Assembly (NCBI GenBank): GCA_009921265.1
Contig: RFYV01000016.1
Coordinates: forward strand, 1-52,159
From: Betaproteobacteria bacterium
GTDB lineage: Bacteria; Pseudomonadota; Gammaproteobacteria; Burkholderiales; Burkholderiaceae_C
Direction: 5' to 3'
Length of the DNA: 52,159 nucleotides
Under the pieces are notes generated by a model. That model searched no databases. It saw only the letters and a list, made by a program, of their open reading frames with translations, and was not told the DNA's origin. The position numbers and the translations under genes are program-made. The stretch's first letter is position 1. Each line of letters begins with the position of its first letter. This document shows, piece by piece, positions 7,108 through 34,562 of this stretch.

Positions 7108-7518
7108 TTATTGAATCAGACAAAATCGCGGAAGTATCGTTCCGTCTTTTAAAGTCACATAGCAAATTTCTACCGCTTGTCCAATCCAACTACCCTTGGG
7201 CTCGGATCCTTCTAAATTAGAGACCATCAGCGGACCTTCTTCGAGTTGAATGCTGATGACGTTGTAGGGCGTGGTGTAGGCCTCTAAATATTGGCGATGA
7301 AAAACAATCCAACTCCAAATGCTTGCTTTGCCCGATATAGGTTGCCATTCAAAATCTAATGACAAACAATAACCACAGGTGGGGCCTGGAGGATAGCGAA
7401 AGGTATTGCAATGTTTGCATTGTTGCAAACGCATGGCGCGTGCGCGAATGCTCTCCCACATGGGACGATCGTAGTGGCCTAAGACGGGAGGCGGTGAGAG
7501 AGGCGTTTTATCTTGCAT
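7108..7518 (-). CDS. DUF35 OB-fold/zinc-ribbon partner protein
   Basis: This 136-residue protein has the two-part DUF35 layout. An N-terminal rubredoxin-like zinc ribbon carries CKHC and CGYC, and an OB fold contains SGKASIWSWIVFHRQY and PYNVISIQLEEG. DUF35 proteins bind acyl-CoA and pair with thiolase-fold enzymes. In the steroid Ltp2-DUF35 system the pair forms an aldolase. I start at ATG 7518, five bases after the thiolase-like stop; the longer frame to 7590 would overlap that gene. It is the last gene of the minus-strand operon. Confidence 0.9.
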   Translation of the reverse strand: MQDKTPLSPPPVLGHYDRPMWESIRARAMRLQQCKHCNTFRYPPGPTCGYCLSLDFEWQPISGKASIWSWIVFHRQYLEAYTTPYNVISIQLEEGPLMVSNLEGSEPKGSWIGQAVEICYVTLKDGTILPRFCLIQ

Positions 7519-7523
7519 GTGTA

Positions 7524-8690
7524 TCAGCGTCCATAAATAATGGAGAAGGCTTTGCCAAAGATATCGGATGAATAATGCGCACGATTGCAATTTTCAACTT
7601 GTCGATTACCGCACGTACCACGCAATTGACGCACTATTTCTAATTGGTGATTCCATCCTTGCATATAAGACTCTGAGAGATGACCGCCGCTGGTGTTGAC
7701 GGGTCTTTTGCCGCCAGGGGCAATGCCTTCCTCTTTGCAGAGTTTGGGGAATTCGCCAGGTTTGCAATAACCGTATCCTTCTAATGCCAAAGGTATGTGA
7801 ACAGAAAAACTATCGTAAATCTGAACCAGATCTATGTCTTCGGGGCCCCATCCTGTTGCATTAAAAATACAATCGGCAACTTTTGATTGGGCGTGTGTAT
7901 AAAAAGTTTCGAGTTGCGGTCTAAGCGAAGTTCCGTTTTGGTTGTAATCGTAACGAGCAATGGTTTCGATGTAAACAGGTTTATCGCATATCTGTCGAGC
8001 GCGATTGGACTCGGCCAATATCATTGCGACGCCTCCATCGTTGATCATGCAGTAATCAAATAAATGCAATGGCTCGCACACGTAATCGGATGACAAGTAA
8101 TCGTCAATCGTAATAGGTTGTTGTTGAATGGCATGTGGATTTTTGGAGGCCCATGCGCGTTGAGCAACTGCAACTTGTCCCAAATCGCTTTCTGTGTAGT
8201 CTCGCTCTTGCGCATAACGCCTTTGAAGCATGGCGTACAAACTTCCCTGTGAGGTCATGCCCCATGGTGCATGGTAAACATAAGAGAGAACGTTTTCTCC
8301 GCCCATGGCTTTAGCGCCACCGTATTGAACATTGGCTGATCTTTGATTGTTGCCATAAACCAATGCCACCACTTCTGCCATCCCCGTTTCGATGGCCATC
8401 ACCGCTTGTGAGATCGCCATGGCTGCATTGCCTAAACCACCCCATCGCACATTCAAACCCAGCACTTCACCCATGCGTTCATAGGAAGTGGATTGACCCG
8501 ATAGAAGTCCATCAATGTCTTGAGCGCTGATGTTTGCGTCTTGCAGTGCGCGTTGAAATGCAACAGTGGCGTAGCCATATGAATCAAAAGGTACTTGACC
8601 TTGACGAACGAGATTCCAATCTTGACGCCAATCAGAGTGGCCAATGCCAACGAAAGCTGCGCTGCGATGTAGAGGAATTTTTTGTTCCAT
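7524..8690 (-). CDS. Thiolase-fold protein lacking the nucleophilic Cys (Ltp2-like aldolase candidate)
   Basis: This 388-residue thiolase-superfamily protein is of the SCP-x/lipid-transfer type. Where active thiolases have ACASG, residues 84-93 read GGLGNAAMAI with no cysteine. The C-terminal GHP motif is replaced by SESYMQG, placing Tyr342 at the usual His position after the conserved NTSGG. Another Tyr sits in QIYDSFSVH. Ltp2-type retro-aldolases of steroid side-chain catabolism likewise work without the thiolase Cys, use tyrosines and need a DUF35 partner, here the next gene. Retro-aldol cleavage of a 3-hydroxyacyl-CoA is therefore inferred. A non-catalytic acyl carrier role is the alternative. 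Confidence 0.85.
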   Translation of the reverse strand: MEQKIPLHRSAAFVGIGHSDWRQDWNLVRQGQVPFDSYGYATVAFQRALQDANISAQDIDGLLSGQSTSYERMGEVLGLNVRWGGLGNAAMAISQAVMAIETGMAEVVALVYGNNQRSANVQYGGAKAMGGENVLSYVYHAPWGMTSQGSLYAMLQRRYAQERDYTESDLGQVAVAQRAWASKNPHAIQQQPITIDDYLSSDYVCEPLHLFDYCMINDGGVAMILAESNRARQICDKPVYIETIARYDYNQNGTSLRPQLETFYTHAQSKVADCIFNATGWGPEDIDLVQIYDSFSVHIPLALEGYGYCKPGEFPKLCKEEGIAPGGKRPVNTSGGHLSESYMQGWNHQLEIVRQLRGTCGNRQVENCNRAHYSSDIFGKAFSIIYGR

Positions 8691-8699
8691 CGGAAAATT

Positions 8700-10301
8700 T
8701 TATGCTGTGCTTTTGCTTGCTAAATAATACTTTTCAAGAATTTCTTGCGTTTTACCGCGATGTACTTTGCCTGTGTCGGTGAGGGGAACTTCATCGTCTT
8801 TGACAATCAAAACATAGCGTGGAATTTTAAAAGCGGCGGCAGATTTTTTGCAATGTGCCAATAAGTCTTTCATGTCGATGGTTTGGCCTGGATGAGCAAC
8901 GACCATAGCTGCAACAATTTCGTCACGCTCTTTGTCGGGCAAACCCACCACCACGGCTTGTCGCACACGCGGATGGCTATGCAATACATCCTCTACATCG
9001 ACAGGCACCACATTGATGCCGCCAGTTTTAATCAGCTCTTTGTAGCGACCTCTAAAAGTTAAGCTGCCATCTTCTTCCAGCACGCCCACGTCACCCGTGT
9101 GAAACCAACCCTCAGCATCAATCGTTTCACGCGTGCGTTCGGGGTTTTTGTAATAGCCAGGTGTGATGTAACCACGCAATAAAATTTCGCCAGCTGTACC
9201 GCTTGGTAAAGTTTGTTGCGTATCGGGATCGGTGATTTTGATTTCAACACCCGTTAGTGGTTTGCCAGCGTTGCGCATTTTGGTTGCTAGGGGTGCGCGT
9301 GCATCGGTATCACAACTGTGTCCATAGCCTTCGGTTAATCCGTAGCCACTGATCATTTCATGCGCGCCCATTTCGTGCATCAAGTGAATCACACCCGAGC
9401 GTACGGTGCCTGTGCGCCAAGCGGATAAATCAAATTTGTTTCGATGTGGATAGGCATGCATGGCCAGTGCAATGTTGGGAAGCGTGTAAATGCCTGTGCA
9501 GCGTTCTCTCTCCATGGTTTGAAAAAGATCATCAATGTCGTACTTAAATAAAATGACAATGGATCCACCATGCGTCATCACGGCAAATAAACCATTGATG
9601 CATGTCAAACTCCAAAACATGGAAGTTGGCATGAGCATTCGGTCTAATTCGGTGAGGTACATGCGCTCGCCAATGCCGTGGGTATTTTCTATGCAACCGC
9701 GGTGAGTGAGTTCAACCGCTTTGGATCTTGCTGTTGAGCCCGATGTAAATAACAGGTAAGCGTTGTCATCTGGTTTAACATTTTTTTGTAATTCATCAAT
9801 CGACGCATCGTCCACTCCATCGGCTAGTTTTAATAAAGCCTCGTATGTCATTGCGCCCGGTAATAAATCGGTGCCAAAGCCGATGATGGTTTTGAGCAAG
9901 GGTAGGGCTTTTGAGAGATCACCGATCTCTCGCATGGCTAGGCTGTAGTTGTTGCTTAAATATTGATCGACCATGATGAGAATTGAAGAATCCGTGCTGA
10001 GCAACGCATGCTCGAGCTCCATTTTTTTCCACCATGTATTTACACCCACTAAGACGCCACCTAATAGTGCAACCGCAAAATCAATCACTACCCATTCGAT
10101 TTGGTTGCCCATAATGAGCGCAACTTTGGTATCTTTACGAACGCCGAGTTTGTAGAGTGCTTTGGCAAGATGGCGCACCTCTTTTCTAAATTCGTTATAG
10201 CTCAGTCGTCGAACGTTATCGGTTAAAAAATTGCGTTCGCCATAACGCTCGGCCATTTCGTCCATCAGTCCTGCAAAGGTGCGATTGCGTGGTAAATCCA
10301 T
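8700..10301 (-). CDS. Acyl-CoA ligase (AMP-forming)
   Basis: This 533-residue ANL-superfamily adenylating enzyme would activate a carboxylic acid to its CoA thioester. The A3 phosphate loop reads LLFTSGSTARSKAVELTH. This departs from the usual SGTTGxPKG at three positions but keeps the Lys. The A5-like motif is SGYGLTEGYG. The A7 Asp is in GWFHTGD, the hinge is GRYKELIKTGGINV and the catalytic C-terminal Lys is in TDTGKVHRGK. No signal peptide or membrane segment is present. It lies between the zinc alcohol dehydrogenase and a thiolase-like gene in one operon, ten bases ahead of the latter. Confidence 0.92.
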   Translation of the reverse strand: MDLPRNRTFAGLMDEMAERYGERNFLTDNVRRLSYNEFRKEVRHLAKALYKLGVRKDTKVALIMGNQIEWVVIDFAVALLGGVLVGVNTWWKKMELEHALLSTDSSILIMVDQYLSNNYSLAMREIGDLSKALPLLKTIIGFGTDLLPGAMTYEALLKLADGVDDASIDELQKNVKPDDNAYLLFTSGSTARSKAVELTHRGCIENTHGIGERMYLTELDRMLMPTSMFWSLTCINGLFAVMTHGGSIVILFKYDIDDLFQTMERERCTGIYTLPNIALAMHAYPHRNKFDLSAWRTGTVRSGVIHLMHEMGAHEMISGYGLTEGYGHSCDTDARAPLATKMRNAGKPLTGVEIKITDPDTQQTLPSGTAGEILLRGYITPGYYKNPERTRETIDAEGWFHTGDVGVLEEDGSLTFRGRYKELIKTGGINVVPVDVEDVLHSHPRVRQAVVVGLPDKERDEIVAAMVVAHPGQTIDMKDLLAHCKKSAAAFKIPRYVLIVKDDEVPLTDTGKVHRGKTQEILEKYYLASKSTA

Positions 10302-10329
10302 TTTCTACTTCCCGTTTTTTCTTGAGTTC

Positions 10330-11385
10330 TTAAAGTCCAGGTTTGAGGATGATGCGTCCAGTGGATCGGCCTGCTTCGACGTCGCTGTGCGCTTGTGACG
10401 CGTGTTCAAGTGACATCTCTCCAGTGATGATGGGTTTGATATCACCGCGTGCCACCAAATCGAGTGCGTCTTGAAGTTGTTTCTTAGAAGTGCTTTTGGC
10501 GCTCATGATGGAGATGTCTCGCATAAACAATTGTGCGGGATTGAGTTTGACAAAGTCGCCTGTGACTTGTCCCACAAAAATCCAACGCGCGCCCATGGCC
10601 AAACTGCGACGTGTTGCTTCAAATGTAGGGCTGCCCACATTGTCAATGACTACATCAACACCGTTACCACCTGTTGCTTCTTTGACCGCGCCAGAAAAAT
10701 CTTCGCCGCGTTCAACCAATAGCACTTCATGCGCTCCATTTTCAAAAATAATTTTTTGTTTTTCTTTGGATGATGTAACTGCAATGACGTATGCGCCTGC
10801 GAGTTTGCCCAATTGAATGCCATGTACGCCTAAGCCGCCACCCGCACCTGTCACCAAAACTTTTTCACCCATTTTGACTTTGCCCACGTCTCGCACGGCG
10901 TTGAGTTCGGTACCAATAGCGCAAGATGTGATGGCAGCTTGATTGAATGTAACCCCTTGCGGAATGTGACAAACGCCGTCTTGTTGAACCGCAACAAACT
11001 CTGCATAGCCACCGTTGAGTCCGATGTCACCCAAAAATTCACGATCGTTGCAAGAGGTTTCGCGTGAACTTCTGCAATACATGCAGTGACCACAAATGTG
11101 TCTGCGTTGTGTGGTGGTGACGCGGTCGCCAGGTTTAAATCCAAAAACTTGGGGTCCGATTTTTTCGACAACGCCCGATACTTCGTGCCCAGGTATCACA
11201 GGCATTTTGATGCCGCGACGCAATACACCGTTGCGTGTAACGACATCGTGAAAACAAACACCGCAAGATTCCACACGAATCAATAGATCGGTGGGGCGCA
11301 TGTCTGGGATAGGCACGTTTCTTAGGTACATGACTTCGGGGCCGCCTGGGGCTTCCACTACAACTGCTCTCATGGTTTGTGTCAT
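10330..11385 (-). CDS. Zinc-dependent alcohol dehydrogenase (MDR family)
   Basis: This is a 351-residue medium-chain dehydrogenase. The catalytic zinc ligands are in CGVCFHD and PGHEVSG. The structural zinc lobe CGHCMYCRSSRETSC carries four cysteines. The NAD(P)-binding Rossmann motif is VTGAGGGLGVHGIQLG, an alanine/glycine-rich variant of GxGxxG. It may oxidise a 3-hydroxyacyl-CoA or an aldehyde/alcohol released by the neighbouring aldolase-like pair. The start overlaps the upstream DUF35 stop in an ATGA, implying translational coupling. An internal Met five residues in is the other possible start. Confidence 0.9.
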   Translation of the reverse strand: MTQTMRAVVVEAPGGPEVMYLRNVPIPDMRPTDLLIRVESCGVCFHDVVTRNGVLRRGIKMPVIPGHEVSGVVEKIGPQVFGFKPGDRVTTTQRRHICGHCMYCRSSRETSCNDREFLGDIGLNGGYAEFVAVQQDGVCHIPQGVTFNQAAITSCAIGTELNAVRDVGKVKMGEKVLVTGAGGGLGVHGIQLGKLAGAYVIAVTSSKEKQKIIFENGAHEVLLVERGEDFSGAVKEATGGNGVDVVIDNVGSPTFEATRRSLAMGARWIFVGQVTGDFVKLNPAQLFMRDISIMSAKSTSKKQLQDALDLVARGDIKPIITGEMSLEHASQAHSDVEAGRSTGRIILKPGL

Positions 11386-11795
11386 GTAGAGTCCTTTTCA
11401 AATTTCACCAAAGTGACGGCCGATGTGACTGCATCAAAACAAGCTTTGACGCGCATACCAATGTGGATCTCACTCTTTTTAACGCCCACCAAATTGCTGT
11501 AGATGCGAATGCCTTCATCGAGTTCCACGAGCACGACGTTATAGGGCCTCTCGGCTTCAAAACCTTTGAAGTAGGGACGATGAAAAACACACCATGACCA
11601 AATCGATCCTTTGCCACTAACTTGTTTCCAGTCCACTTCTGTGCTGTGACAATCGGTACACATTTTTTTAAATGGATATCGATAGGAGTTGCATTGGATG
11701 CATTGTTGAACCATTAAGCGGCCCTGTTGTGCACCGCGCCAATGGGCTTGATTGAGTTCATCAATTTTTGGAAGAGGTTTTAAGTAATCGCTCAT
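11382..11795 (-). CDS. DUF35 OB-fold/zinc-ribbon partner protein
   Basis: This 137-residue protein has the zinc ribbon CIQC/CTDC followed by an OB fold (SGKGSIWSWCVFHRPYF, PYNVVLVELDEG). It closely resembles the DUF35 gene at 7108-7518, so the two thiolase/DUF35 modules may be paralogous. The start at 11795 overlaps the thiolase-like stop in an ATGA, and its own stop overlaps the alcohol dehydrogenase start the same way, so three genes are translationally chained. The longer frame to 12017 runs inside the thiolase gene and was not used. Confidence 0.9.
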   Translation of the reverse strand: MSDYLKPLPKIDELNQAHWRGAQQGRLMVQQCIQCNSYRYPFKKMCTDCHSTEVDWKQVSGKGSIWSWCVFHRPYFKGFEAERPYNVVLVELDEGIRIYSNLVGVKKSEIHIGMRVKACFDAVTSAVTLVKFEKDST

Positions 11796-12937
11796 ACGGC
11801 ATCCTTTCCGTAAATGATGGAGGTCATTAAGGGTGCAGCGCACATGTATTGAATGAGTTTGGCATCTTTGACTTGTCGTTGATTGCATTCGCCCCGTATT
11901 TGTCTCACGGCTTCTACGTTGAGGCCCCATCCTTGCATATAACTCTCTGACAAATGACCGCCACTGGTGTTGGTTGGAAATTGACCGCCTAATTCGAGTC
12001 GGCCGTTTTGGATCCAATCACCACCTTCGCCCTGTTTGCAAAAACCAAATCCTTCAAGACTAAATAGCACAGTGGGTGCAAAGTTGTCGTAAACCATGAG
12101 GACATCGAGATCTTCGCGTTTGACGTCTGCCATGGCATAAACATCGGTGGCGGCTTTTTGTATGGCGTTGTGCCATAAATCATCGGGGGGAAATGTGGAG
12201 TCTTTAAGTTTGCTCGATTGAGAAAATCCTCTGATGTAAGCGGGTGGTTTTTTCATGTCTTTGGCGCGATCAGCGCTGGTGATGATGAGAGCAACTCCAC
12301 CATCATTGATCATGCAGTAGTCATAGATGTGCAAAGGCTCTGCAATAAATTTTGACGCTTGGTGTTGTTCAACGGTAATGAGTTCTCGCATCACGGCAGA
12401 TGGATTGAGCGACGCGTGTTTTCTAAATGCAACTGGAATTGCTGCTAGTTGTGCGCTCGTTGTTCCATATTGATGCATGTGACGTGCAAACATCATCGCG
12501 TGAACAGCCCCAGGTGACGTCATGCCATAAGGAAAAAATTGACCTGCGCCGCCACTGCCATATCGATCCCCCTCACCACCGTATTTGTCTCCAGCTGATC
12601 GACCATCGTTGCCATAAACCAAAGCAATGGTTTTTGCCATACCTGATGCAACAGCCATTGCTGCAATTTGAATCGACACACCCGACATGCGTCCTTGCCC
12701 TGGTGTAGTTAATGCAAAGCGAGGATTCAATCCAAATGATTCACTAAAGCGTTGATAGTCTGGAATGCGATTGACGATCAAACCATCGATATCTGCCGCG
12801 GTGAGTCCACAATCGTTGAGTGCTTCTTTTAATGCCCATGCACCTAAGTCGTAGGTGTCCATGCCAGGCAAGCGACCAAACTGCGTGGTGCCAACACCAA
12901 CAATGGCGGTTTGATTTTTGAGATGAGGCGAGGGCAT
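11792..12937 (-). CDS. Thiolase-fold protein lacking the nucleophilic Cys (second Ltp2-like candidate)
   Basis: This protein has 381 residues from ATG 12937; the frame continues to 13015 but would overlap the ABC ATPase gene. The thiolase Cys segment reads GQGRMSGVSIQIAAMAVASG with no cysteine. The GHP motif is again SESYMQG after NTSGG, with Tyr333 in place of His. VYDNFAPTVLFSLEGFGFC matches the tyrosine-bearing segment of the first copy. It shares FDYCMINDGG-like and NTSGGHLSESYMQGW blocks with 7524-8690. With the overlapping DUF35 gene it probably forms a second aldolase-type complex. Whether both copies act on the same intermediate cannot be told. Confidence 0.85.
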   Translation of the reverse strand: MPSPHLKNQTAIVGVGTTQFGRLPGMDTYDLGAWALKEALNDCGLTAADIDGLIVNRIPDYQRFSESFGLNPRFALTTPGQGRMSGVSIQIAAMAVASGMAKTIALVYGNDGRSAGDKYGGEGDRYGSGGAGQFFPYGMTSPGAVHAMMFARHMHQYGTTSAQLAAIPVAFRKHASLNPSAVMRELITVEQHQASKFIAEPLHIYDYCMINDGGVALIITSADRAKDMKKPPAYIRGFSQSSKLKDSTFPPDDLWHNAIQKAATDVYAMADVKREDLDVLMVYDNFAPTVLFSLEGFGFCKQGEGGDWIQNGRLELGGQFPTNTSGGHLSESYMQGWGLNVEAVRQIRGECNQRQVKDAKLIQYMCAAPLMTSIIYGKDAV

Positions 12938-12957
12938 CAGTTGAACCTTTATTGCTG

Positions 12958-14037
12958 TTATGTTTTGGATGAATGCGCATACAAGCGCAAGGCTTGAGTT
13001 GGAATATGAATCCACACGGATTGACCGATGTCTAAATGTTGGGGAGGACTCAATTGCGAGCGAACTTGTATGTTTCCGATATTGATGTACACATCAGCCA
13101 CGTTACCCAGAAAAAATGTATGACTGACTTGTCCTTGCCACACATTAGCGCCTTGTAGTGGCGATGTGGAGAGTCTGACTTGTTCGGGTCGACTCATTAC
13201 GTCAACCGATTGACCTGTTGCAAATTGTCCATGTGTGCAAACGATTTGCATGTGATCACTCAATTGAACGCTTGTTGTTTCACCAGTTTGGATAACTTGT
13301 CCCTTATGAATATTGGCAAGACCAATAAAATCTGCACCAAATACAGTTGTTGGATTTTCGTAAATATCTACGGGCGTGCTGATCTGATCAATTAACCCTT
13401 CGCACAATAAAACAATGCGATCGGCTACAACCATGGCTTCTTGCTGATCGTGCGTGACATAAACCGTGGTGATGCCCAACAGTTTTTGCAATTGACGCAA
13501 TTCAAAGCGCATGTGCTCGCGTAGTTTGGCGTCTAAATTGGACAGGGGTTCGTCAAACAACAAAACGCTTGGTTCTAAAACGACAGCGCGAGCGAGTGCA
13601 ACGCGTTGTTGTTGACCACCACTGAGTTGGCTAATGGCGCGTGTTGCATATTCTGTAAGACCCACCAAGGAGAGGGCGCGATCTACCTTTTGTTTGATTT
13701 GTGATGATTCAATGCCTTTGAGTTCGAGACCAAAGGATACGTTTTCTGCAACTGTTTTGTGTGGCCACAAGGCATAGGATTGAAAAACCATTCCAATGGA
13801 TCGTTTTTCGGGGGGCAATGAAAATTCAGACGAAGAAACCACTTTGTCATCAATTGAAATTTCTCCACCAGTGACATTTTCTAAACCTGCGATGCACCTG
13901 AGGATTGAAGTTTTTCCGCATCCGCTTGGGCCTAACAGAACTAAAAATTCGCCATCTTCAATTTCAAGACTCACATCTGCAACAGCACGATGCTGGCCAT
14001 ATTTTTTAACCAATCCTCTAATTGAAATCTGTGCCAT
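12958..14037 (-). CDS. ABC importer ATP-binding subunit (PotA/FbpC type)
   Basis: This 359-residue ATPase has Walker A GPSGCGKTS, the Q-loop in GMVFQSYALWPHKT, signature LSGGQQQR, Walker B VLLFDEPLSNLDA and the switch His in VTHDQ. A C-terminal beta-rich TOBE-type regulatory domain follows from about residue 240. It belongs to the iron(III)/spermidine/thiamine importer branch. Together with the permease and binding protein just upstream it makes a complete importer. The transporter genes sit in the middle of the acyl-CoA operon, so the cargo is more likely an organic substrate than iron, but this is inference. Confidence 0.94.
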   Translation of the reverse strand: MAQISIRGLVKKYGQHRAVADVSLEIEDGEFLVLLGPSGCGKTSILRCIAGLENVTGGEISIDDKVVSSSEFSLPPEKRSIGMVFQSYALWPHKTVAENVSFGLELKGIESSQIKQKVDRALSLVGLTEYATRAISQLSGGQQQRVALARAVVLEPSVLLFDEPLSNLDAKLREHMRFELRQLQKLLGITTVYVTHDQQEAMVVADRIVLLCEGLIDQISTPVDIYENPTTVFGADFIGLANIHKGQVIQTGETTSVQLSDHMQIVCTHGQFATGQSVDVMSRPEQVRLSTSPLQGANVWQGQVSHTFFLGNVADVYINIGNIQVRSQLSPPQHLDIGQSVWIHIPTQALRLYAHSSKT

Positions 14038-14068
14038 ATCGAAATTACCTTTTTAAGTACCTATTGAT

Positions 14069-16835: not shown

Positions 16836-16962
16836 CGTAGCCTCGATTTTAAATAAACAATTCAATGAATGTAAGTTATATCTTTACAAAATACAACACA
16901 ATTGAACTGGTGTTTTCCCTCTTAAGGTCACCTAGGTTTCAGGCAATTCACCGCATGTGTGA

Positions 16963-17835: not shown

Positions 17836-17851
17836 GAATTTTCCTGTTTTT

Positions 17852-21780: not shown

Positions 21781-21885
21781 AATTCTGTTACGCTGAATGT
21801 AAAATTGAGGCGTGGAATACATACACTTATTTCACACCATTAATGCTTTATTGGCTCAATGGTTTTTTGATGAATAGGCAATGTG

Positions 21886-22647: not shown

Positions 22648-22657
22648 AAGAAATTTA

Positions 22658-25883: not shown

Positions 25884-25892
25884 GGAATTGAT

Positions 25893-26864
25893 ATGAAAAA
25901 CATTACAAGACGGTTGATGTTGAGTGGTGCGATTGCATGTGCTTTATTAGGCAGTGCCAACGCTTGGGCTCAAACTTGGCCCAACAAACCCATTCGAATG
26001 ATTGTTCCACTGGCACCTGGTGGTGGAACTGATATTGCTGCACGTGTGGTGGCAAATTATTTAACTGAAGCGTTGGGTCAGCAAGTCATTATTGAAAATA
26101 AATTAGGCGCTAACGGTGTTGTGGGGGTGGACTTTGCGTCTAAGGCTGCACCTGATGGATACACCATTTTGGTGGGATCAACCACCACGATGGCGGCTAA
26201 TAATTTCATGTACAAAAATCCAACCGTTGATCCTCTCAAAGATTTTTTGCCCGTTGCAATTTTGGGAACGATTGAGTTTGCGATGGTGGTTCCTGCCAGC
26301 TCCAACTACAACAGCTTGAAAGATTTGATTTCTGCTGCTAAAAATAACCCTGGCAAACTCAGCTATGGTTTTGGTTCTAGCGCTGCTTTGTTGTGTGGTG
26401 AGATGTTTAATGCAGCCGCTGGGATTCAAATTGTCAAAGTTCCTTATAAAGGAACGCCGCAGTCTCTGACTGATTTAGCAGCCGATCGCATTCAATTGGT
26501 ATGCGAACCTTTGGGCACCAGTATGTCTTTGATCAAAGCGGGCAAACTTCGTCCGTTGGCCGTAACCAGCGTTAATCGACATGGTTTAGCCCCCGAAGTG
26601 CCAACAATGGCAGAAGCTGGATTACCCATGGAACACGCTACATGGGCCGGTTTTTTTGTACCTGCAAAAACACCCAAAGAAATCATCACACGACTCAGTA
26701 ACGAAATTGTGAAGATGATGGCAAGACCTGAAGTACAAGAAAAAATTCGTGATACTGGGTTTGTACCGCGTCAACTGGGAAGTGACGAGTTTGGTGCTAC
26801 TCACCGAAATGATTACACGCGAATGGAAAAGTTAATTAAACAAGCTGGAATATCTCCAGAGTAA
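25893..26864 (+). CDS. Bug/TctC-family periplasmic solute receptor
   Basis: The 323-residue product starts MKNITRRLMLSG with a signal peptide ending ANAWAQ. The motif is IRMIVPLAPGGGTDIAARV with the canonical GGG and Asp. PYKGTPQSLTDLAADR and the C-terminal region are typical. AAGGA precedes the start. It is the second of two adjacent receptors inside the mutase operon. The two differ clearly in the ligand loop (SAGSGTD versus APGGGTD), which suggests two related ligands rather than a recent duplication. Confidence 0.92.
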   Translation: MKNITRRLMLSGAIACALLGSANAWAQTWPNKPIRMIVPLAPGGGTDIAARVVANYLTEALGQQVIIENKLGANGVVGVDFASKAAPDGYTILVGSTTTMAANNFMYKNPTVDPLKDFLPVAILGTIEFAMVVPASSNYNSLKDLISAAKNNPGKLSYGFGSSAALLCGEMFNAAAGIQIVKVPYKGTPQSLTDLAADRIQLVCEPLGTSMSLIKAGKLRPLAVTSVNRHGLAPEVPTMAEAGLPMEHATWAGFFVPAKTPKEIITRLSNEIVKMMARPEVQEKIRDTGFVPRQLGSDEFGATHRNDYTRMEKLIKQAGISPE

Positions 26865-26874
26865 GGTTGCAGTT

Positions 26875-28554
26875 ATGTCAACATCATCCAAACCACTGCC
26901 ACAAACATACGATCATTGGCTAGAAGAGCACAGCAAAGAGTTGCAAGACTCTAGGAAAAAATCGTTTGAAAGTTCCAGCGGTATTCTTGTTGAAACGCTG
27001 TATACCCCTGAGCATTTGCAACATGCGGGGTGGGATTACCAGCGCGATGTAGGCTATCCTGGGCAAGTACCTTATACGCGTGGTTTTACACCTGGGGGCT
27101 ATCGTCAACATCTTTGGAAAATGGAGATGTATGCTGGATTTGGTTCTGCTGAAGAAGCCAATGAGCGTTATCGCTATTTGATGTCGCAAGGCAGTACGGG
27201 TGGTGTTTCTATTGCCTTGGATTTGCCAACGCAAATAGGGTATGACTCAGATCATGTTATGGCTAGAGATGAAGTGGGACAAATTGGAGTTGCTTTAACT
27301 TCTTTGGATGATGTGGAGCGTGTGTTTGATGGTATACCGCTTGATCAAGTAGGGCATATTTTTTCAACTGCCAATTGCATTGGCCCCATTGTTTGTGCAT
27401 GGTTGTTAGCGCTTTATGAAAAACGCGGCACGCCAACAGCAGACTGCATCGTGCAATTGCAAAATGATCCTATCAAAGAATATATTGCACGCGGTACACA
27501 ATTTTTACCTATTGAGTCAGCGGTTAAATTAACCACTGACATGATTGAATATTGTCGAACGGCTGCGCCCGAGTGGTTGCCGATTTCAATTTCGGGTTCT
27601 CACATGAAGCAAGCAGGCGCGACTTGTGTTCAAGAAGCAGCCTTTACGATTTGTAATGGCATCACTTATGTAGAAAGTTGTTTGGCGCGTGGCATGAAGA
27701 TCGATGATTTTGGTCATGTGATTGAATTGCACTTTTGTACCGAAATGGATTTCTTTGAAGAGGTTGCTAAATACCGCGCAGTGCGAAAAGTGTGGGCAAG
27801 GTTGGTGCGTGAACGTTTTGGGGGTACCACTGCTAAGGCGCAACATTTCAGATTGCATGCGGCGACATCAGGGCGACCATTAACGGCACAACAACCCCTG
27901 AACAACATTGCGCGTATTACTTTGCAAGCACTTGCGCAAATTTTGGGTGGATGTGAACAAACGCGAACAGCTTCATTTGACGAAGCGTTGGGCATTCCAA
28001 CACAAGAGGCCGCGCGCACATCGATTCGTGCCAATCAAATCATTGCTTATGAAACAGGAATACCAGACACAGTTGATCCTTTGGGTGGTTCATATTATTT
28101 GGAAAATCTCACACTTGAATACGAAAAACGCATCGATTCCATCATTGCCCAAGTGGATAAGATGGGTGGATCGTTAGCGGCAGTCAAAGATGGTTTTTTT
28201 CAACGTGCATTGGCACAAGGCGCATACCGAGAGCAGTGCGCTGTTGAAAGTGGCGAGCAAGTAGTGGTCGGTGTTAATCGTTTTCAATCAGAAGAAGGCC
28301 AACCTGTTCCAACTTTTAAAGTCGATCCTGGTGCGGCTGATCGACAAATTGCAAAACTTAAACAAGTGCGTGAGCGCAGAGATGCGCAAGCGGTTGCCAA
28401 GAGTTTGCAACGTTTAAAAGAAGATTGTCAAGCCAAGCGCAATATCATGCCCGCCACATTGGAGTGCGTAAAAGCCTATGCAACGATTGGTGAAATCGCC
28501 GATGTATGGCGCGAAGTTTTTGGTGTTTATGTTCCTGAATCTGTGAGGTTTTAA
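26875..28554 (+). CDS. B12-dependent acyl-CoA mutase, large (barrel) subunit, atypical active site
   Basis: This 559-residue TIM-barrel subunit belongs to the methylmalonyl-CoA mutase family, with the B12 domain on a separate gene as in two-gene isobutyryl- and hydroxyisobutyryl-CoA mutases. Aligned by eye to P. shermanii MutB, it keeps Tyr89 (Tyr86 here), Arg207 (Arg206), His244 (His243), His328 and Glu370. The Tyr/Arg pair binds the free carboxylate in methylmalonyl-CoA mutase and is changed in isobutyryl-type enzymes, so a dicarboxylic substrate is likely. Lost are Tyr243 (Ser242), the CoA-tunnel residues at 75, 78, 82, 85, 87 and 283, Gln330 and Asn366 (both Ala). It shares one base with the next start. 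Confidence 0.92.
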   Translation: MSTSSKPLPQTYDHWLEEHSKELQDSRKKSFESSSGILVETLYTPEHLQHAGWDYQRDVGYPGQVPYTRGFTPGGYRQHLWKMEMYAGFGSAEEANERYRYLMSQGSTGGVSIALDLPTQIGYDSDHVMARDEVGQIGVALTSLDDVERVFDGIPLDQVGHIFSTANCIGPIVCAWLLALYEKRGTPTADCIVQLQNDPIKEYIARGTQFLPIESAVKLTTDMIEYCRTAAPEWLPISISGSHMKQAGATCVQEAAFTICNGITYVESCLARGMKIDDFGHVIELHFCTEMDFFEEVAKYRAVRKVWARLVRERFGGTTAKAQHFRLHAATSGRPLTAQQPLNNIARITLQALAQILGGCEQTRTASFDEALGIPTQEAARTSIRANQIIAYETGIPDTVDPLGGSYYLENLTLEYEKRIDSIIAQVDKMGGSLAAVKDGFFQRALAQGAYREQCAVESGEQVVVGVNRFQSEEGQPVPTFKVDPGAADRQIAKLKQVRERRDAQAVAKSLQRLKEDCQAKRNIMPATLECVKAYATIGEIADVWREVFGVYVPESVRF

Positions 28555-28997
28555 TGACGAACAAACGAGCAGCGTTTGGACAGCGTCCAATTCGAGTGGT
28601 CCTAACAAAAGTGGGACTCGATGGCCATGATCGTGGCGTCAAAGTAATTGCACAAGCCTTGCGCGATGCAGGCATGGAAGTGATTTATGCAGGGCTTCGC
28701 AGAACGCCTGAAGAAATTGCTCGTATCGTATTGGAAGAGGATGCGGATGTTTTGGGTTTATCGATTTTGTCGGGCGCTGTGGTGCCATTGACGCGTCGGG
28801 TGGTGGAGGCGTTGAAGGCGCAACAACTGGATGATGTTGTAATGGTTGTGGGGGGCATCGTGCCGGAACCATCGCGGGTGGAACTCAACGCAATGGGAGT
28901 TACGGGTGTTTTTACACCAGGCTCAAGTCTCAAAGCAATTATTGATTTTATTCAAGCTGGTGTAGCCAATCACCGCACATACCAGGAGTCAAAATGA
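28554..28997 (+). CDS. B12-dependent acyl-CoA mutase, cobalamin-binding subunit
   Basis: The 147-residue domain matches the C-terminal cobalamin domain of methylmalonyl-CoA mutase. TKVGLDGHDRG contains the DxHxxG motif with His25 as lower axial ligand and the conserved Lys19. LGLSILSG and VVGGIVPEPS form the nucleotide-tail pocket. All B12 residues are intact, in contrast with the altered barrel subunit, so the pair should still bind adenosylcobalamin. The start overlaps the large-subunit stop by one base, and the stop overlaps the thiolase start in an ATGA. Confidence 0.94.
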   Translation: MTNKRAAFGQRPIRVVLTKVGLDGHDRGVKVIAQALRDAGMEVIYAGLRRTPEEIARIVLEEDADVLGLSILSGAVVPLTRRVVEALKAQQLDDVVMVVGGIVPEPSRVELNAMGVTGVFTPGSSLKAIIDFIQAGVANHRTYQESK

Positions 28998-30151
28998 AAG
29001 GTCACGATGTTTTTATCAATGGCGTGGGTTACCACCCCTTTGGACGTTTTCCAGAAAAAACACTCAAAACATTAGCAGCCACGGCAGCGCTTGCGGCCTT
29101 GGATGATGCACAAATTCAGGTAAAGGATGTGCAAGCCGCGTTTTGCGCTAATGCCTATGCTGGTTTACTTAATGGGCAAGAATCCATTCGTGGTGAAACT
29201 TGGTTGCGTGGTATTGGTTTGGGTGGCGTGCCCATTATGAATGTTGAAAATGCATGTGCCAGCGGATCAACCGCTGTTCATATGGCATGCATGGCTATCG
29301 CAAGTGGTAACTATGACACTGTGCTGGTTGTGGGTGCAGAAAAAATGTTTGTGGGCGATACAGGTCGTACTTTGGCCGCACTTGCTAATTCTGCAGATAC
29401 CGAAGTGATGAGCAACATTGGTTTGCAATTTTCTGCGTTGGATGCCATTAGGGTGCGTGAAATGATGGCAGAAGAAACTTTAGGCGATGATGATTTTGCT
29501 TGGGTGACTGTTAAAAATCACGACCATGCCGTGAGTAATCCAATTGCGCAATATCGTAAACCACTTACCATCGAACAAGTACAAACATCTCGCATGATTG
29601 CAGATCCGATTCGTTTGCTGATGTGCAGTGCAATTTCTGATGGTGCGGCCGCATTGGTTCTGTCACGCAAACCCACTCGTGGTGGCATTCGCGTGCGTGC
29701 CAGCGCCATGGCTTCTTCCCCTTGGCGCCTTACACCTGATAGCACGCCTGGGCCTACGCTTGCTGCTAACAAAGCGTATGAGCAAGCATCGATCGGTCCA
29801 CAAGATTTGCATTTGGTTGAAGTGCATGACGCTGTGTCGCCAGCAGAGTTGATGCATTACAGAGAATTGGGTTTGTGCGCGCATGGTGATGTCGGCAAAT
29901 TTGTTGCTGAAAAAGCCAGTGCCATTGGTGGTCGATTGCCTGTTAACACCAGTGGGGGGTTGAATTCTCGTGGACACCCTGTGGGGGCAACAGGTGTTGC
30001 TCAGTTGATTGAATTAACATTGCAATTGCGTGGTGACGCAGGACCACGACAAGTACAAGGTGCGCGCATTGCCATGGCTCACAACTCGGGTGGATGGATT
30101 GATCAAGATCCGGCTGTTAGCAGCATTCACATATTAGAAAAAATCAATTAA
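28994..30151 (+). CDS. SCP-x-type thiolase with intact nucleophile
   Basis: This 385-residue thiolase-superfamily enzyme has Cys88 in NVENACASGS and His328 in SRGHPVGATG, both needed for thiolysis. The third catalytic position reads AMAHNSGG instead of CxGGG, which is normal for the SCP-x/lipid-transfer branch. It would cleave a 3-oxoacyl-CoA with CoA to give acetyl- or propionyl-CoA. It is the only one of three thiolase-fold proteins in the window that looks fully active as a thiolase. A DUF35 gene follows after nine bases. Confidence 0.92.
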   Translation: MKGHDVFINGVGYHPFGRFPEKTLKTLAATAALAALDDAQIQVKDVQAAFCANAYAGLLNGQESIRGETWLRGIGLGGVPIMNVENACASGSTAVHMACMAIASGNYDTVLVVGAEKMFVGDTGRTLAALANSADTEVMSNIGLQFSALDAIRVREMMAEETLGDDDFAWVTVKNHDHAVSNPIAQYRKPLTIEQVQTSRMIADPIRLLMCSAISDGAAALVLSRKPTRGGIRVRASAMASSPWRLTPDSTPGPTLAANKAYEQASIGPQDLHLVEVHDAVSPAELMHYRELGLCAHGDVGKFVAEKASAIGGRLPVNTSGGLNSRGHPVGATGVAQLIELTLQLRGDAGPRQVQGARIAMAHNSGGWIDQDPAVSSIHILEKIN

Positions 30152-30160
30152 GGATCGATC

Positions 30161-30541
30161 ATGCAAAAAACCAATCCATCCCTTTTCTTTGTGGAGGGCG
30201 AGGCACCAGGCGCACCAGGACTCAAAGGCTCACACTGCCCCCAATGTCGTCAAATTGTTTTGCTAGAAGTCGCAGCGTGCCCACAATGTGGCTATCGCGA
30301 GTTAGACACGGTATGCATCGGACAAAAAGCGACGCTGGGTGAATCATCTGAGGTTTTACATTCCACAGAAGGATTTGAAGCGCCGTATTACATTGGTCAA
30401 ATTGAAACCGCTGAGGGACCTCACACCTTTGCTCCTTTGGATGTCAAACCTGGCACTCAACTTTGCGTTGGCATGCCCTTGACATTCAAGCTCCATCACC
30501 GAGCCGATGGACGAGTGGGTTTCATTTACGCAGTTGAGTAG
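30161..30541 (+). CDS. DUF35 OB-fold/zinc-ribbon partner protein
   Basis: This 126-residue protein has a zinc ribbon with CPQC and CPQCG and a short OB fold (GFEAPYYIGQIETAEGP). The linker between ribbon and barrel is shorter, and the SxWSW block of the two minus-strand copies is missing, so it belongs to a different DUF35 subgroup. It presumably binds the thiolase encoded just upstream and helps acyl-CoA access. The acyl-CoA ligase follows after ten bases. Confidence 0.9.
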   Translation: MQKTNPSLFFVEGEAPGAPGLKGSHCPQCRQIVLLEVAACPQCGYRELDTVCIGQKATLGESSEVLHSTEGFEAPYYIGQIETAEGPHTFAPLDVKPGTQLCVGMPLTFKLHHRADGRVGFIYAVE

Positions 30542-30551
30542 GAATTAAAGA

Positions 30552-32105
30552 ATGAATGTTGCCGATCAACTGTATAAATCAGCATTGTTGTTTAGCGATC
30601 ATCTGGCCGCAAGGTGTGATGATGAAACGATGACCTATGCGCAATTGGATGAGCGAAGCAATCGTTTGGCCAATGCACTATTAGCAATGGGTCTTAGTCA
30701 TGGAGATCGAGTGGCGACATTGATTGAAAACTCGATTCGATGCGTTGAAATTGATTTTGCTCTTGCCAAAGCTGGACTTGTTCGCGTCTCGCTCAATCCC
30801 AAATTAACATCTCGTGAAGCTGCTTATATATTTCAAGACAGCGACGCTAAATGTATTATTTATGGTGCTTCATTTGATCAAGCCATTGCGGAGTCAACCC
30901 AAGAGACACCAATCGTGCAATTCAAAATTCGCGCACAGGAGACCAGTGCGACTGATTTGGAAGGAAGTCATAATTATGAAAAATTCTTAACATCAGGCAA
31001 AACTCATGCCCCAAGTGTTGCTGTTGATGGTGAAGATATTTATTGCTTGTTTTATACATCAGGCACAACGGGCAAACCCAAAGGGGTGATGCTGTCGCAT
31101 CGATCAATCCTTCAGACCTCATTTAATTTATTGATGGAGTTAGGGCCTATCGCATCGAATGAAAAAATATTATTGATGCAACCCTTGAGCCATGGTGCAG
31201 GATTTTTTGTGTTGCCACAATACATGAAGGGCGGGTGTTGCATCATCATGCGCCATTTTGATCCCGCGCAAGTGATTGATTTGGCGAGCAAGTATCAAGT
31301 GGAAGTGATTAAGTTAATTCCAACGATGCTGCAAAGAATTTTATTGTTGCCTAATGCCAAAAAAATTAAATTACCTCATTTGCGTTACATGATTTATGGC
31401 GCAAGCCCAATGCCCAATGAACCACTCAAGTTTGCGATCGAGATTTTTGGGCCCAATAAGTTAGTTCAAATATATGGCCAAAGTGAATGCCCTGTAACCC
31501 TGTCCATCTTGCCCAGCGAAGAGCATGTAGCCAATCCAGCATTCCCGCAACGATTGCTTTCCGCAGGGCGCGCTTGGGCCACTGTTGAGATGCGAATTGT
31601 GGATGATGACATGAAAGATATTGAAGCAGGTGGCATAGGCGAATTGGCGTTAAAGGGACCCCACATGATGTCGGGTTATTGGAAGCGCGAAGATTTAACG
31701 CAGGAGACGATTCAATACGGATGGTTGAAGACAAAAGACATGGGGCGAATTGATGAGCACGGATTTGTTTATTTGTTGGGTCGAAAAGACGAAATGATCA
31801 TCAGCGGTGGCTATAACATTGCACCTAGAGAAGTAGAAGATGTCCTTTACCAATTTCCAGGCGTCGAGCAAGCAGCGGTGGTGGGTGAAACGGATGTGGA
31901 GTGGGGTCAAGCGGTTGTGGCTTATGTGGTGATGAATCAGGCTCATCAACACAATGCTAAAAATCTAATCGATTTTGGCCGTCAAGAATTGGGGTTTAAA
32001 AAACCAAAACGAATTTATATGGTCCCGGAATTGCCTAAAAATGCAGCTGGAAAAATACAAAAAAAAGCATTGCAACCTAGCATGGCTACTGAACAAATTG
32101 GATAA
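30552..32105 (+). CDS. Acyl-CoA ligase (AMP-forming)
   Basis: This 517-residue ANL enzyme has a canonical phosphate loop LFYTSGTTGKPKGVMLSH, the A5 motif IYGQSE, the hinge GRKDEMIISGGYN and the catalytic Lys in AAGKIQKK. It would convert a free acid to its CoA ester at the entry of the pathway or for a released intermediate. Unlike the ligase at 8700-10301 its P-loop is standard, so the two enzymes probably take different acids. Thirteen bases or fewer separate it from both neighbours. Confidence 0.93.
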   Translation: MNVADQLYKSALLFSDHLAARCDDETMTYAQLDERSNRLANALLAMGLSHGDRVATLIENSIRCVEIDFALAKAGLVRVSLNPKLTSREAAYIFQDSDAKCIIYGASFDQAIAESTQETPIVQFKIRAQETSATDLEGSHNYEKFLTSGKTHAPSVAVDGEDIYCLFYTSGTTGKPKGVMLSHRSILQTSFNLLMELGPIASNEKILLMQPLSHGAGFFVLPQYMKGGCCIIMRHFDPAQVIDLASKYQVEVIKLIPTMLQRILLLPNAKKIKLPHLRYMIYGASPMPNEPLKFAIEIFGPNKLVQIYGQSECPVTLSILPSEEHVANPAFPQRLLSAGRAWATVEMRIVDDDMKDIEAGGIGELALKGPHMMSGYWKREDLTQETIQYGWLKTKDMGRIDEHGFVYLLGRKDEMIISGGYNIAPREVEDVLYQFPGVEQAAVVGETDVEWGQAVVAYVVMNQAHQHNAKNLIDFGRQELGFKKPKRIYMVPELPKNAAGKIQKKALQPSMATEQIG

Positions 32106-32117
32106 AGAAAGAATCTT

Positions 32118-33431
32118 ATGCGTGACGAACTCGGAAGTTATTTAACTCAAGTTTCCTGGAAAAACTTAAATCAAGCAGCCAAAGATAAATTATTGTTGTG
32201 TTTGTTGGCTAATTTATCAGTGGCTGTTGCAGGCACCAGTGCCATGCGCCTTCCAAAGCCGCCTTTGCACAAAGGTCATTTGTTGTTTGATGGCGGAGAA
32301 ACATCAAGTGCACGCGAGGCTGCTTTTTATAACGCCGCATTAATGCATGCAAGAACACAAGACGATTTCCATCCGATTGGCAATTTACATATTGCTACCA
32401 TAGTTATACCTGCCATTTTTGCTCAAGCCGAACGATTAGGCTCAAAGGGCGAAGCATTTTTGGATGCTCTTGCAGTGTCGTATGCCACTGCAGCAGGTTT
32501 ATCGCGTCAATTTTCACCCGTCACAACACCTAGAGGTTTGCGCTCAACGAGTTTGTATACCTGTATGGGCGCAGCAGTAGGAGTCGAACGATTGCACGGT
32601 AACAACGCAACAGCGATGGCCAATACATTGGGAATGGCATCGCAAACCAGTTTTGGAACAACTCAGTGTTGGCCCGACGGTACTGATGAATATCAATTTC
32701 ATGTAGCCAATGCAGCCAGTCAAGCCTTGTTGTGTTCTGATTTAACGCAAGCCAAAGTTTTATCGGGAAAAAATGCATTAGATGGCCCTTATGGTTTTTA
32801 CTCTGCTTTGATGGGTTTGAGGCCATCATTCCAAACCATCAAAAATGACTTTGAACCCAATGCGGCGATTGTTGAAACTGTTCTCAAGCGTTATCCAGTC
32901 AGTGGCATCTGTCAGCCTGTGGTTCGATTGTCTGAAAAACTGGCGTTGCAAGTTAAAGATCAAGCGATTGACAAAATTTTGCTTGAAATGAATGCGTTTG
33001 AGATGAACTATCCAGGCACGCTCAAAGAGGGTCCTGTTTTTCAATCATTCACTGATAAATTGATGAGTGCGAGGTATTGTTTAACTTCAGTTATTTCTGA
33101 AGGTCACTTTGATTTTGACGCTTTCATCAGTCATAACTATCAAAAGCTTGTACCCCTTATGGCGTGTACGAATGTGATTTCTGCCTCTGACTTGGGAACG
33201 CTTAGCTGTCGAATCACCATCACTTTAAAAAATGGGCAAACCATTCGTGATGAATTAAGAAATGGTGGCGCTCAGTTGGCTCTTGATTGGTCAAGCATTG
33301 ATGAGTGGGCACAAGACTTGTGGATGGCTGGGAAACGAACGCCTTCATCTTATTCAAAAACACGAGACGTCATCCATGATTTGCACAAACTCCCATTGAG
33401 TGAATTAACAAAATGTCTTGCATTTGATTAA
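32118..33431 (+). CDS. MmgE/PrpD-family protein
   Basis: This 437-residue protein has the MmgE/PrpD helical fold, whose members dehydrate 2-methylcitrate, decarboxylate cis-aconitate or isomerise related tricarboxylates. The helical active-site region ARTQDDFHPIGNLHIATIVIPA corresponds to the conserved Asp/Asp/His block. ATANTLGMASQ-like helices and the C-terminal beta-alpha lid follow. It is somewhat shorter than true 2-methylcitrate dehydratases (about 480). With prpB elsewhere in the window a methylcitrate role is possible, but the operon context suggests another hydroxyacid. Confidence 0.85.
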   Translation: MRDELGSYLTQVSWKNLNQAAKDKLLLCLLANLSVAVAGTSAMRLPKPPLHKGHLLFDGGETSSAREAAFYNAALMHARTQDDFHPIGNLHIATIVIPAIFAQAERLGSKGEAFLDALAVSYATAAGLSRQFSPVTTPRGLRSTSLYTCMGAAVGVERLHGNNATAMANTLGMASQTSFGTTQCWPDGTDEYQFHVANAASQALLCSDLTQAKVLSGKNALDGPYGFYSALMGLRPSFQTIKNDFEPNAAIVETVLKRYPVSGICQPVVRLSEKLALQVKDQAIDKILLEMNAFEMNYPGTLKEGPVFQSFTDKLMSARYCLTSVISEGHFDFDAFISHNYQKLVPLMACTNVISASDLGTLSCRITITLKNGQTIRDELRNGGAQLALDWSSIDEWAQDLWMAGKRTPSSYSKTRDVIHDLHKLPLSELTKCLAFD

Positions 33432-33449
33432 TCTTTAAGATCGATTTCT

Positions 33450-34562
33450 ATGCATATAAAAAAAGTCGAATCATTTATTTTGCACATACCCGTGACGGGT
33501 AGTCAGATTTCGGACAGCACGCATACGATTTCTCATTGGGGTGTGGTGGGCGCGATGATCACTGCAGAAGACGGCACGTGTGGTTATGGATTTACGGGAA
33601 CGCACGCGCATTTACCCAGCGATCAACTCATTACACGTTGTATTGATACTTGTTTGGCACCTTTGTTGTTGGGTGACGATAGCGATGATATTGAACGTTT
33701 GTGGCAAAAAATTGCGCGTCAACCTGCGTTGCAATGGGTAGGGCGTGCAGGTATTACAACGATTGCGCACGCTGCGGTTGATATTGCGCTGTGGGATCTG
33801 AAAGCTAAGTTGCAACATATTGCTTTATGGAAATTGTTGGGTGGTCAAGTGCGCGATCGTGTTCGTGCATACAACACCGATATCGGTTGGTTGTCGATTC
33901 CTGATGATCAATTGATACGTGGAGCACAACAAGCGGTGGCCGATGGTTTTACAGGAATCAAAATCAAAGTGGGTTCAACGGTTGAGAGAGATCTCAAGCG
34001 TTTGCGTTCGGTGCGACAAGCGATTGGTGACGACATCACGCTTGCGATTGATGGAAACGGCAAATGGGATTTGGCCGACTGCTTGCGCTTTTGTCATGCG
34101 GCAGAGGACTCTCATGTTTTTTGGTTTGAAGAACCGTTGTGGTATGACGCCGTGCAATCGCATGCGCAGTTGGCACGTTCAACAAGTATTCCTGTCGCAT
34201 TGGGCGAGCAGTTGTATAGCGTCGATGCATTTGCAGAATTTATCGGTCAACAAGCGATTCATTGGTTGCAACCCGATGTGACGCGCATGGCTGGCGTGAC
34301 TGAAGTATTGCGTGTGATTGAATTAGCCAGTGCCCATCGGTTACCCGTTGCACCGCACGCGGGGGACATGAGTCAAATTCATCAACACCTTAATTTCAGT
34401 CGATCGACTTGTACTGTGTTGGAGTACATTCCTTGGATTAAGGATAGTTTTGAAGAGCCGGCGTTGGTGGTGGATGGCTATTACCAAGCGCCCCAGCAAC
34501 CTGGGGCGAGTTCGACACCAACCCAACAAGCTTGGGGAAAATTTAGAAAACCGTTGTCTTAA
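33450..34562 (+). CDS. Mandelate racemase/muconate-lactonising enzyme family protein
   Basis: This 370-residue enolase-superfamily enzyme abstracts a proton alpha to a carboxylate. The KxK pair is in GIKIKVGS. Metal ligands are in [17 protein letters not shown] and ALGEQL. A His in APHAGDMSQ is the likely second base. These place it in the mandelate-racemase subgroup, which includes sugar-acid dehydratases and racemases; the exact substrate is unknown. It is the last gene of the plus-strand operon and its stop overlaps the convergent Bug gene stop by four bases. Confidence 0.9.

Follow-up and report, generated by a model that had tools for sequence, protein, structure and literature searches.

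The window analysed here, 52,159 nucleotides long, is an entire contig (RFYV01000016.1, assembly GCA_009921265.1) of the 3.56 Mb draft genome of a Betaproteobacteria bacterium, and contains 26 genes that diverge from a short intergenic region. Gene content, synteny, motifs and the mutase clade identify one part of this locus, positions 17852-33431, as an accessory catabolic operon conserved around a split adenosylcobalamin (B12)-dependent acyl-CoA mutase, which we term MutLS. The conserved set probably serves to degrade a branched organic acid and uses a distinct vitamin-B12 enzyme to do so, and the remainder of the locus looks like a separate neighbour. More specifically, we tentatively propose, at chances slightly short of even, that the MutLS clade, found in records from Comamonadaceae to Actinomycetes and Rokubacteria, is an undescribed functional subclade among the B12 carbon-skeleton mutases, with a rebuilt substrate channel, and that the core operon encodes an undescribed route for a 2-substituted dicarboxylic acid (or even a free polycarboxylic acid).

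The open reading frame list and profile searches agree with the original prediction on layout and families: thirteen genes on the minus strand (7108-20804) and thirteen on the plus strand (20920-34562) are separated by the 115 bases between the start of the acyl-CoA dehydrogenase gene ACAD1 at 20804 and the ATG of the crotonase gene at 20920. In both arms adjacent genes are either 5-31 bases apart or overlap slightly, by roughly twelve bases at most, with two exceptions: 127 bases separate the lactonase gene from that of the ABC binding protein, and 171 bases separate the crotonase gene from that of IclR (measured with the starts of DUF35_B and of an ABC permease each one codon off). The predicted split mutase with its MeaB chaperone was likewise recovered: a large subunit of the MM_CoA_mutase family (MutL) is accompanied by a small B12-binding subunit with the DxHxxG motif (MutS) and by a MeaB partner that scores above its curated cut-off.

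Homologs of MutL were sought among 5.8 billion proteins, of which 8000 candidates were scored and the best 120 listed; identities among the matches listed run from 100% down to 68%. Nineteen MutL relatives were aligned to derive two peptide patterns, and a scan of the genome collection with these yielded 23 loci, although a scan by two peptide patterns only will have missed clade members. Sixteen loci, with a mutase of 55-96% identity, were taken as the MutL clade and seven (40-45%) as outgroups. A gene was scored as present where it was the best match of an open frame with at least 38% identity over at least half its length; the loci are only 3.6-21.7 kb long, so that absences in short loci mean little. 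Within the sequence stretch of each locus, every gene of 17852-33431 is present in at least 3, and at most all, of the 16 MutL-clade loci. Several copies fell below threshold and were left uncounted, namely those of ACAD2 in L025 and L027 (28%), DUF35_C in L027 and L028 (37-38%), the PrpD-like gene in L026 and L033 (31-32%) and L030 (29%), and an HpaI-like gene in L016 and L018 (32%).

The nearest mutase among the genome loci compared belongs to a Limnohabitans sp. Rim8 record (L024, 96% identity), where the genes for IclR, an iron-containing alcohol dehydrogenase (Fe-ADH), MeaB, two Bug receptors, MutL, MutS, the thiolase Thl_C, DUF35_C, the acyl-CoA ligase AcsB, the PrpD-like protein, ACAD1, ACAD2 and HpaI run in a single direction. 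Comamonadaceae records show synteny of MutL, MutS, Thl_C, DUF35_C, AcsB and the PrpD-like gene with MeaB, Fe-ADH, IclR and ACAD1/2, and this synteny is partially retained in records from Bradyrhizobiaceae, Rhodobacteraceae, Actinomycetes and Rokubacteria. The crotonase gene also diverges from ACAD1 in L016, L072 and L073, with ACAD2 next in L016 and L072. Twelve of 14 mutase-bearing genomes, our own included, yield an ACAD1 match at E≤1e-60. The transporter genes vary while the enzymes are constant: Comamonadaceae carry Bug receptors, L027 two DctP receptors with DctQ and DctM, L025 a periplasmic binding protein, and L033 an oligopeptide-type permease with a binding protein, a pattern that fits uptake of a small organic acid. 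In L025 an integrase-core transposase (1446-2645) lies near the Bradyrhizobiaceae core copy, and in the Rokubacteria record L033 an AtuA family protein (2998-4575) is encoded near the PrpD-like gene. L028, a contig filed as Bacteroidales, has genes for MutL, MutS, Thl_C and AcsB as well as one resembling DUF35_C; in the tree its mutase falls together with the one from the Rhodobacteraceae locus L027 (100/100), reflecting recent transfer or a binning error.

A mutase tree was computed from 56 rows; of 57 mutase rows, the first IcmF cut, which aligned as gaps, was replaced by a new cut, and rows L018 and P0029 represent one protein. The 25 MutL-clade rows form one branch (100/99), 13 methylmalonyl-CoA mutase (MCM) rows another (100/100) and two 2-hydroxyisobutyryl-CoA mutase (HCM) rows a third (100/100). 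Joined to the MutL clade at 96/87 is its sister clade, whose mutases (L032 minus strand, L034-L038) are unassigned. Six of the seven outgroup loci carry a CoA-transferase III-like gene and three (L032, L034 and L036) a Thl_C-like gene with ENAC. A search for orthologues of the L034 mutase, a member of the sister clade, gave none in 399 genomes of the order at E≤1e-140, which is uninformative because these genomes included no positive control.

Residues are compared here in what we take to be the MCM numbering, with residue roles presumed from that enzyme. Equivalents of Tyr89, Gln197, Arg207 and His244 are kept in all 25 MutL-clade rows, and the free carboxylate and acyl carbonyl are therefore probably still bound; the dicarboxylic acid put forward earlier as a possible substrate fits the kept Tyr/Arg pair. 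The same 25 rows replace Arg87, Thr195, Tyr243, Glu247, Ser285, Phe287 and Gln330 by Glu, Gln, Ser, Gln, Glu, His and Ala, respectively, and 24 of them replace Gln361 by Glu. HCM keeps most of the MCM residue set but lacks the Tyr89 and Arg207 equivalents. Since the genome also encodes a methylmalonyl-CoA mutase and IcmF, MutLS is an extra mutase. An AlphaFold model of MutL, made from the 19-row alignment, was weak (mean predicted local distance difference test score 68.1; residues 58-89, 332-342, 362-383 and 389-405 below 50) and was left out of fold searches.

The conserved thiolase, Thl_C, contains the motifs ENACASGS, HDAV and GHPVGA, and of the 14 MutL-clade copies all retain ENAC, 13 retain GHPVGA and 12 retain HDAV; all three outgroup Thl_C-like copies have ENAC and GHPVGA. 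Its best solved match is benzoylsuccinyl-CoA thiolase (7pxp, E=1.2e-59), and Thl_C with DUF35_C shows the Cys, the His (HDxx), the GHPxGA motif and the DUF35 partner of a BbsAB-type thiolase. Both miss the NCBIfam equivalog cut-offs for BbsAB, with 227.1 against 750 bits for the thiolase and 45.6 against 250 for DUF35_C against BbsA. The original prediction had described Cys-less thiolase folds; this holds for Thl_A and Thl_B, which have neither a Cys nucleophile nor a GHP motif, and not for Thl_C. The link that it drew between Cys-less thiolase/DUF35 pairs and a B12 mutase is not supported: at the 38% threshold Thl_A and Thl_B occur in none of the 16 mutase loci, and the conserved Thl_C keeps its Cys.

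At even chances, and with the chemistry inferred, the core operon would turn a 2-substituted dicarboxylic acid into its CoA ester, shift its carbon skeleton in a succinyl/malonyl-type rearrangement, and complete its degradation by β-oxidation and thiolysis. A small organic acid would be taken up by a transporter served by the Bug receptors and be converted to its CoA thioester by AcsB. MutLS, kept active by MeaB, would then shift the carbonyl of the thioester onto the adjacent carbon of the 2-substituted dicarboxylyl-CoA, in a step of the type alkyl- or arylsuccinyl-CoA to and from alkyl- or benzylmalonyl-CoA. Precedents are described in passages on IaaGH, which interconverts phenylsuccinyl- and benzylmalonyl-CoA (PMC8360864), and on MatB/ActD, for which conversion of hexylmalonyl- to pentylsuccinyl-CoA is proposed (PMC5719088). 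ACAD1/ACAD2 could desaturate the product and the crotonase-type enoyl-CoA hydratase (ECH) hydrate it; no 3-hydroxyacyl-CoA dehydrogenase is among the core genes, and Fe-ADH may oxidize the hydroxyl group. Thl_C/DUF35_C would finally cleave the 3-oxoacyl-CoA into two acyl-CoAs.

Several observations weigh against this proposal. Three core genes are rare (ACAD2 in 4, crotonase in 3 and HpaI in 3 of 16 loci, several of the loci being short), and in 4 of the 12 genomes with both genes (G537, G538, G547 and G548) ACAD1 is on a different contig from the mutase, so that its link to the operon looks looser there. In G537 and G538 it diverges from a crotonase gene (72-75% identity) as in the window, and in G547 and G548 there is no crotonase match near ACAD1. 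Arg87, Thr195, Ser285 and Gln361, which we take to be among the positions touching the CoA part in MCM, are changed to Glu, Gln, Glu and Glu in the MutL clade and are kept in the iaa-like mutase L004, in which other residues are changed; CoA binding by MutL is therefore predicted only. IcmF also deviates at some of the CoA-side positions, so that losing such contacts is no proof of losing CoA. The PrpD-like protein keeps the DDxH stretch of IRG1 and has lost the Lys and His that align in IRG1 and IDS-epimerase. The roles of Fe-ADH, HpaI and the PrpD-like protein are guesses, the latter two standing outside the proposed steps, and none of the substrate clues is decisive. The Actinomycetes locus L026, the only one of the 16 with any frame whose best window match was Thl_B, has a thiolase-fold gene with 34% identity to Thl_B and no ENAC, and a DUF35 gene (36% to DUF35_B), directly before MutL, both below threshold.

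The L026 pair speaks for the original view that the 26 genes form one system and against a clean split of core and module; being below threshold, it left our estimates as they were. In such a scheme both arms and all three thiolase-fold pairs would serve one pathway, the minus-strand module having been added in this lineage. Both arms indeed begin at the same 115-base region, and their genes are closely spaced, with only 16 bases between lactonase and HpaI, but the ten minus-strand genes beyond HpaI reach threshold in none of the 16 loci, a 127-base gap precedes the ABC genes, and the close relative L024 has the core and, in the stretch examined, no module gene except distant ABC ATPases (25-32%). 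No 9-mer is common to at least 4 of the 11 candidate regulatory regions that could reveal a shared operator, the listed inverted repeats differ by region, and nothing but the stretch before IclR, in the window and in L024, looks alike by eye. We thus consider a single system unlikely. Equally doubtful is that MutLS acts on a free polycarboxylic acid, with AcsB activating the rearranged product and conserved charged residues filling the old pantetheine channel. All 25 clade rows have E84, E284, H286, A330 and R364, 24 have E361 and 23 have R334, where all 13 MCM rows carry R, S, F, Q, H, Q and W at positions E84, E284, H286, A330, R364, E361 and R334; moreover, the PrpD and HpaI families act on free acids. 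However, the thiolase, ACAD and crotonase families, which work on CoA esters, sit in the same operon, some of those positions also differ in IcmF, which is a known CoA mutase, and the His244 and Gln197 equivalents are kept in the clade.

A conventional role, as a second methylmalonyl-CoA or ethylmalonyl-CoA mutase in ordinary propionate or acetate assimilation, would suit the MM_CoA_mutase family assignment and the kept Tyr89 and Arg207 equivalents. We regard it as improbable, given the separate clade (100/99, in a tree without any ethylmalonyl-CoA mutase sequence), the change of Tyr243 to Ser with many other pocket changes (F287, Q330, Q361 and others), the MCM-clade mutase elsewhere in the genome, and core genes without the carboxylase and reductase of the ethylmalonyl-CoA pathway. 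An HcmAB pathway for tertiary 2-hydroxy acids is very improbable, even though no solved structure matches MutL better than the HCM large subunit (E=5.8e-125): Ile90, Asp117 and Gln208, read from 4r3u and presumably substrate-defining in HCM, are Tyr, Ala and Arg in all 25 MutL rows, and the two enzymes fall in separate clades. Ligase, chaperone and split mutase share one operon as in hcm clusters, but the regulator here is IclR, whereas sections of PMC7176365 give GntR as usual for those clusters. On the three residue differences, the HCM pathway was set aside.

The minus-strand genes at 7108-17835 (DUF35_A, Thl_A, AcsA, ZnADH, DUF35_B, Thl_B, three ABC genes and the lactonase) occur in none of the 16 MutL-clade loci at the 38% threshold, and the same holds for the enolase gene and the tested flanking window genes. 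Synteny in relatives, on which the claim of one 26-gene system depended, thus exists for 17852-33431 and is lacking for 7108-17835 and the enolase gene. Thl_B has matches in all 14 mutase-bearing genomes, but none of those outside our own exceeds 48% identity, and two of the 14 yield the ABC binding protein, our own and one at 31%. In a sample of 399 genomes of the family, MutL was found at E≤1e-150 in our own genome only and Thl_B at E≤1e-115 in two, the second copy lying in a different neighbourhood; with both so rare, core and module look like accessory genes that adjoin here. Thl_B gives its best solved matches to thiolase 4u4e (E=5.6e-62) and Ltp2 6ok1 (E=9.9e-62). The catalytic residues of Ltp2 are given in part of PMC12329534 as Tyr294 of YDHF and Tyr344. 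Thl_B has YDNF and SESY at these positions when aligned to 6ok1, and Thl_A has YDSF and SESY through its alignment with Thl_B; the oxyanion His of YDHF is not kept, being Ser in Thl_A and Asn in Thl_B. From these motifs Thl_A and Thl_B look like Ltp2-type retro-aldolases, and 7108-17835 looks like a separate module that probably carries out CoA activation and uses two Ltp2-like enzymes, each with a DUF35 partner, to split hindered 3-hydroxyacyl-CoAs in a retro-aldol reaction.

Table 1. Features of the divergent locus, with the number of MutL-clade loci in which each gene was scored as present.
Feature	Position	Strand	Basis or remark	Loci (of 16)
Neighbour module outside core: DUF35_A, Thl_A, AcsA, ZnADH, DUF35_B, Thl_B, three-gene ABC importer, lactonase	7108..17835	-		0
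HpaI-type aldolase	17852..18652	-	Pfam PF03328; core accessory; 89% in L024	3
ACAD2, second subunit of heteromeric acyl-CoA dehydrogenase	18649..19650	-	C-terminal Pfam domain only	4
ACAD1, first subunit of heteromeric acyl-CoA dehydrogenase	19647..20804	-	Closest solved structure 6wy9 Tcur3483	6
Divergent region, ACAD1/crotonase	20805..20919	.	115 bases	
Crotonase-type enoyl-CoA hydratase (ECH)	20920..21714	+	NF006699 above cut-off	3
IclR-family regulator	21886..22647	+	Family search	8
Iron-containing alcohol dehydrogenase (Fe-ADH)	22658..23836	+	Family search	8
MeaB GTPase, B12 mutase chaperone	23830..24894	+	TIGR00750 above curated cut-off	10
Two Bug (TctC) solute receptors	24891..26864	+	Family search	Bug1 9, Bug2 10
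MutL, large subunit of split AdoCbl-dependent acyl-CoA mutase, distinct clade	26875..28554	+	MM_CoA_mutase family	16
MutS, B12-binding small subunit (DGHDRG)	28554..28997	+	DxHxxG motif	14
Thl_C, SCP2-type thiolase with catalytic Cys, nearest BbsB	28994..30151	+	7pxp E=1.2e-59; motifs	14
DUF35_C, zinc-ribbon partner of Thl_C	30161..30541	+	Two CPQC; no Pfam match at 1e-5	10
AcsB, AMP-forming acyl-CoA ligase	30552..32105	+	Family search	15
PrpD/IRG1-superfamily protein, divergent	32118..33431	+	Weak match to IRG1 and IDS-epimerase	10
Enolase-superfamily gene, outside core	33450..34562	+		0

Beyond the locus, a PEP mutase/isocitrate lyase-family enzyme is encoded at 6184-7104, its end 3 bases from the convergent DUF35_A gene, and a thiamine pyrophosphate (TPP) enzyme at 35555-37285 is flanked by two Bug receptors (NF006203 (PRK08327), 666.4 bits against a cut-off of 456). 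Stretches 38639-42450 and 47610-48857 hold a hydantoinase B/A pair, a CoA-transferase III and several Bug receptors, reminiscent of iaa. An iaa pathway was nevertheless rejected as an account of the core, for the hydantoinase A/B and CoA-transferase III genes of the window lie outside the 26-gene locus and accompany the mutase in none of the 16 loci at threshold. L068 (G099:C81:28000-45000), which contains L004 and comes from a genome of the same order, has, as judged by BLAST against window genes alone, genes resembling those of acyl-CoA ligase, hydantoinases A and B, the mutase and CoA-transferase III. The stretch 6009-9918 of L026 holds the Thl_B-like/DUF35 pair together with an ADP-forming acyl-CoA synthetase.

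Among characterized systems, the bbs β-oxidation of benzylsuccinyl-CoA resembles the core in combining a dehydrogenase, a hydratase, an alcohol dehydrogenase and a thiolase, with BbsAB sharing motifs with Thl_C/DUF35_C and providing the best solved match. It differs in its alcohol dehydrogenase, BbsCD in bbs and Fe-ADH here, in the added B12 mutase, and in that Thl_C/DUF35_C score below the NCBIfam cut-offs. HcmAB shares the split architecture with chaperone and ligase, but not the three substrate-defining residues. The iaa operon of anaerobic indoleacetate degradation in Aromatoleum aromaticum likewise relies on a B12 mutase, IaaGH, whose substrates are a substituted succinyl-CoA/malonyl-CoA pair, and continues with an acyl-CoA dehydrogenase and β-oxidation, as described in sections of PMC8360864. 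In contrast, the conserved core here is without a hydantoinase or a CoA-transferase, a heteromeric ACAD replaces IaaF, and MutL has lost residues kept by the L004 mutase, a stand-in for IaaG whose iaa identity is deduced from its neighbours; in L026 a CoA-transferase III (33% to the window gene) follows MutS. With the Ltp2/Sal steroid side-chain retro-aldolases, as portrayed in part of PMC12329534, Thl_A and Thl_B share the thiolase fold, a DUF35 partner, both catalytic Tyr positions and the lack of a Cys nucleophile. They differ in the YDHF His, miss the cut-offs of the lipid-transfer protein models, and stand in a window with no steroid-ring genes among the families found.

No description of the core gene set was found in the literature searched, in agreement with the original prediction, although the search covered open-access sources only and is weak evidence of absence. 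To our knowledge, a reaction has been assigned to rather few of the B12 carbon-skeleton mutases. Its invariant pocket residues set the MutL clade apart from the MCM, HCM and IcmF rows in the comparison, and it sits in a conserved operon. The neighbouring Cys-less thiolase folds gain a different reading, as retro-aldolases. Among the matches listed, a mutase of 83% identity belongs to Hydrogenophaga sp. BPS33 on a contig of 6.3 Mb, and passages in the literature on BPS33 speak of isolated Hydrogenophaga hosts; if BPS33 does hold the whole operon, the substrate could be found by growth tests. A conserved operon around an unassigned B12 mutase clade is a good target for substrate discovery.

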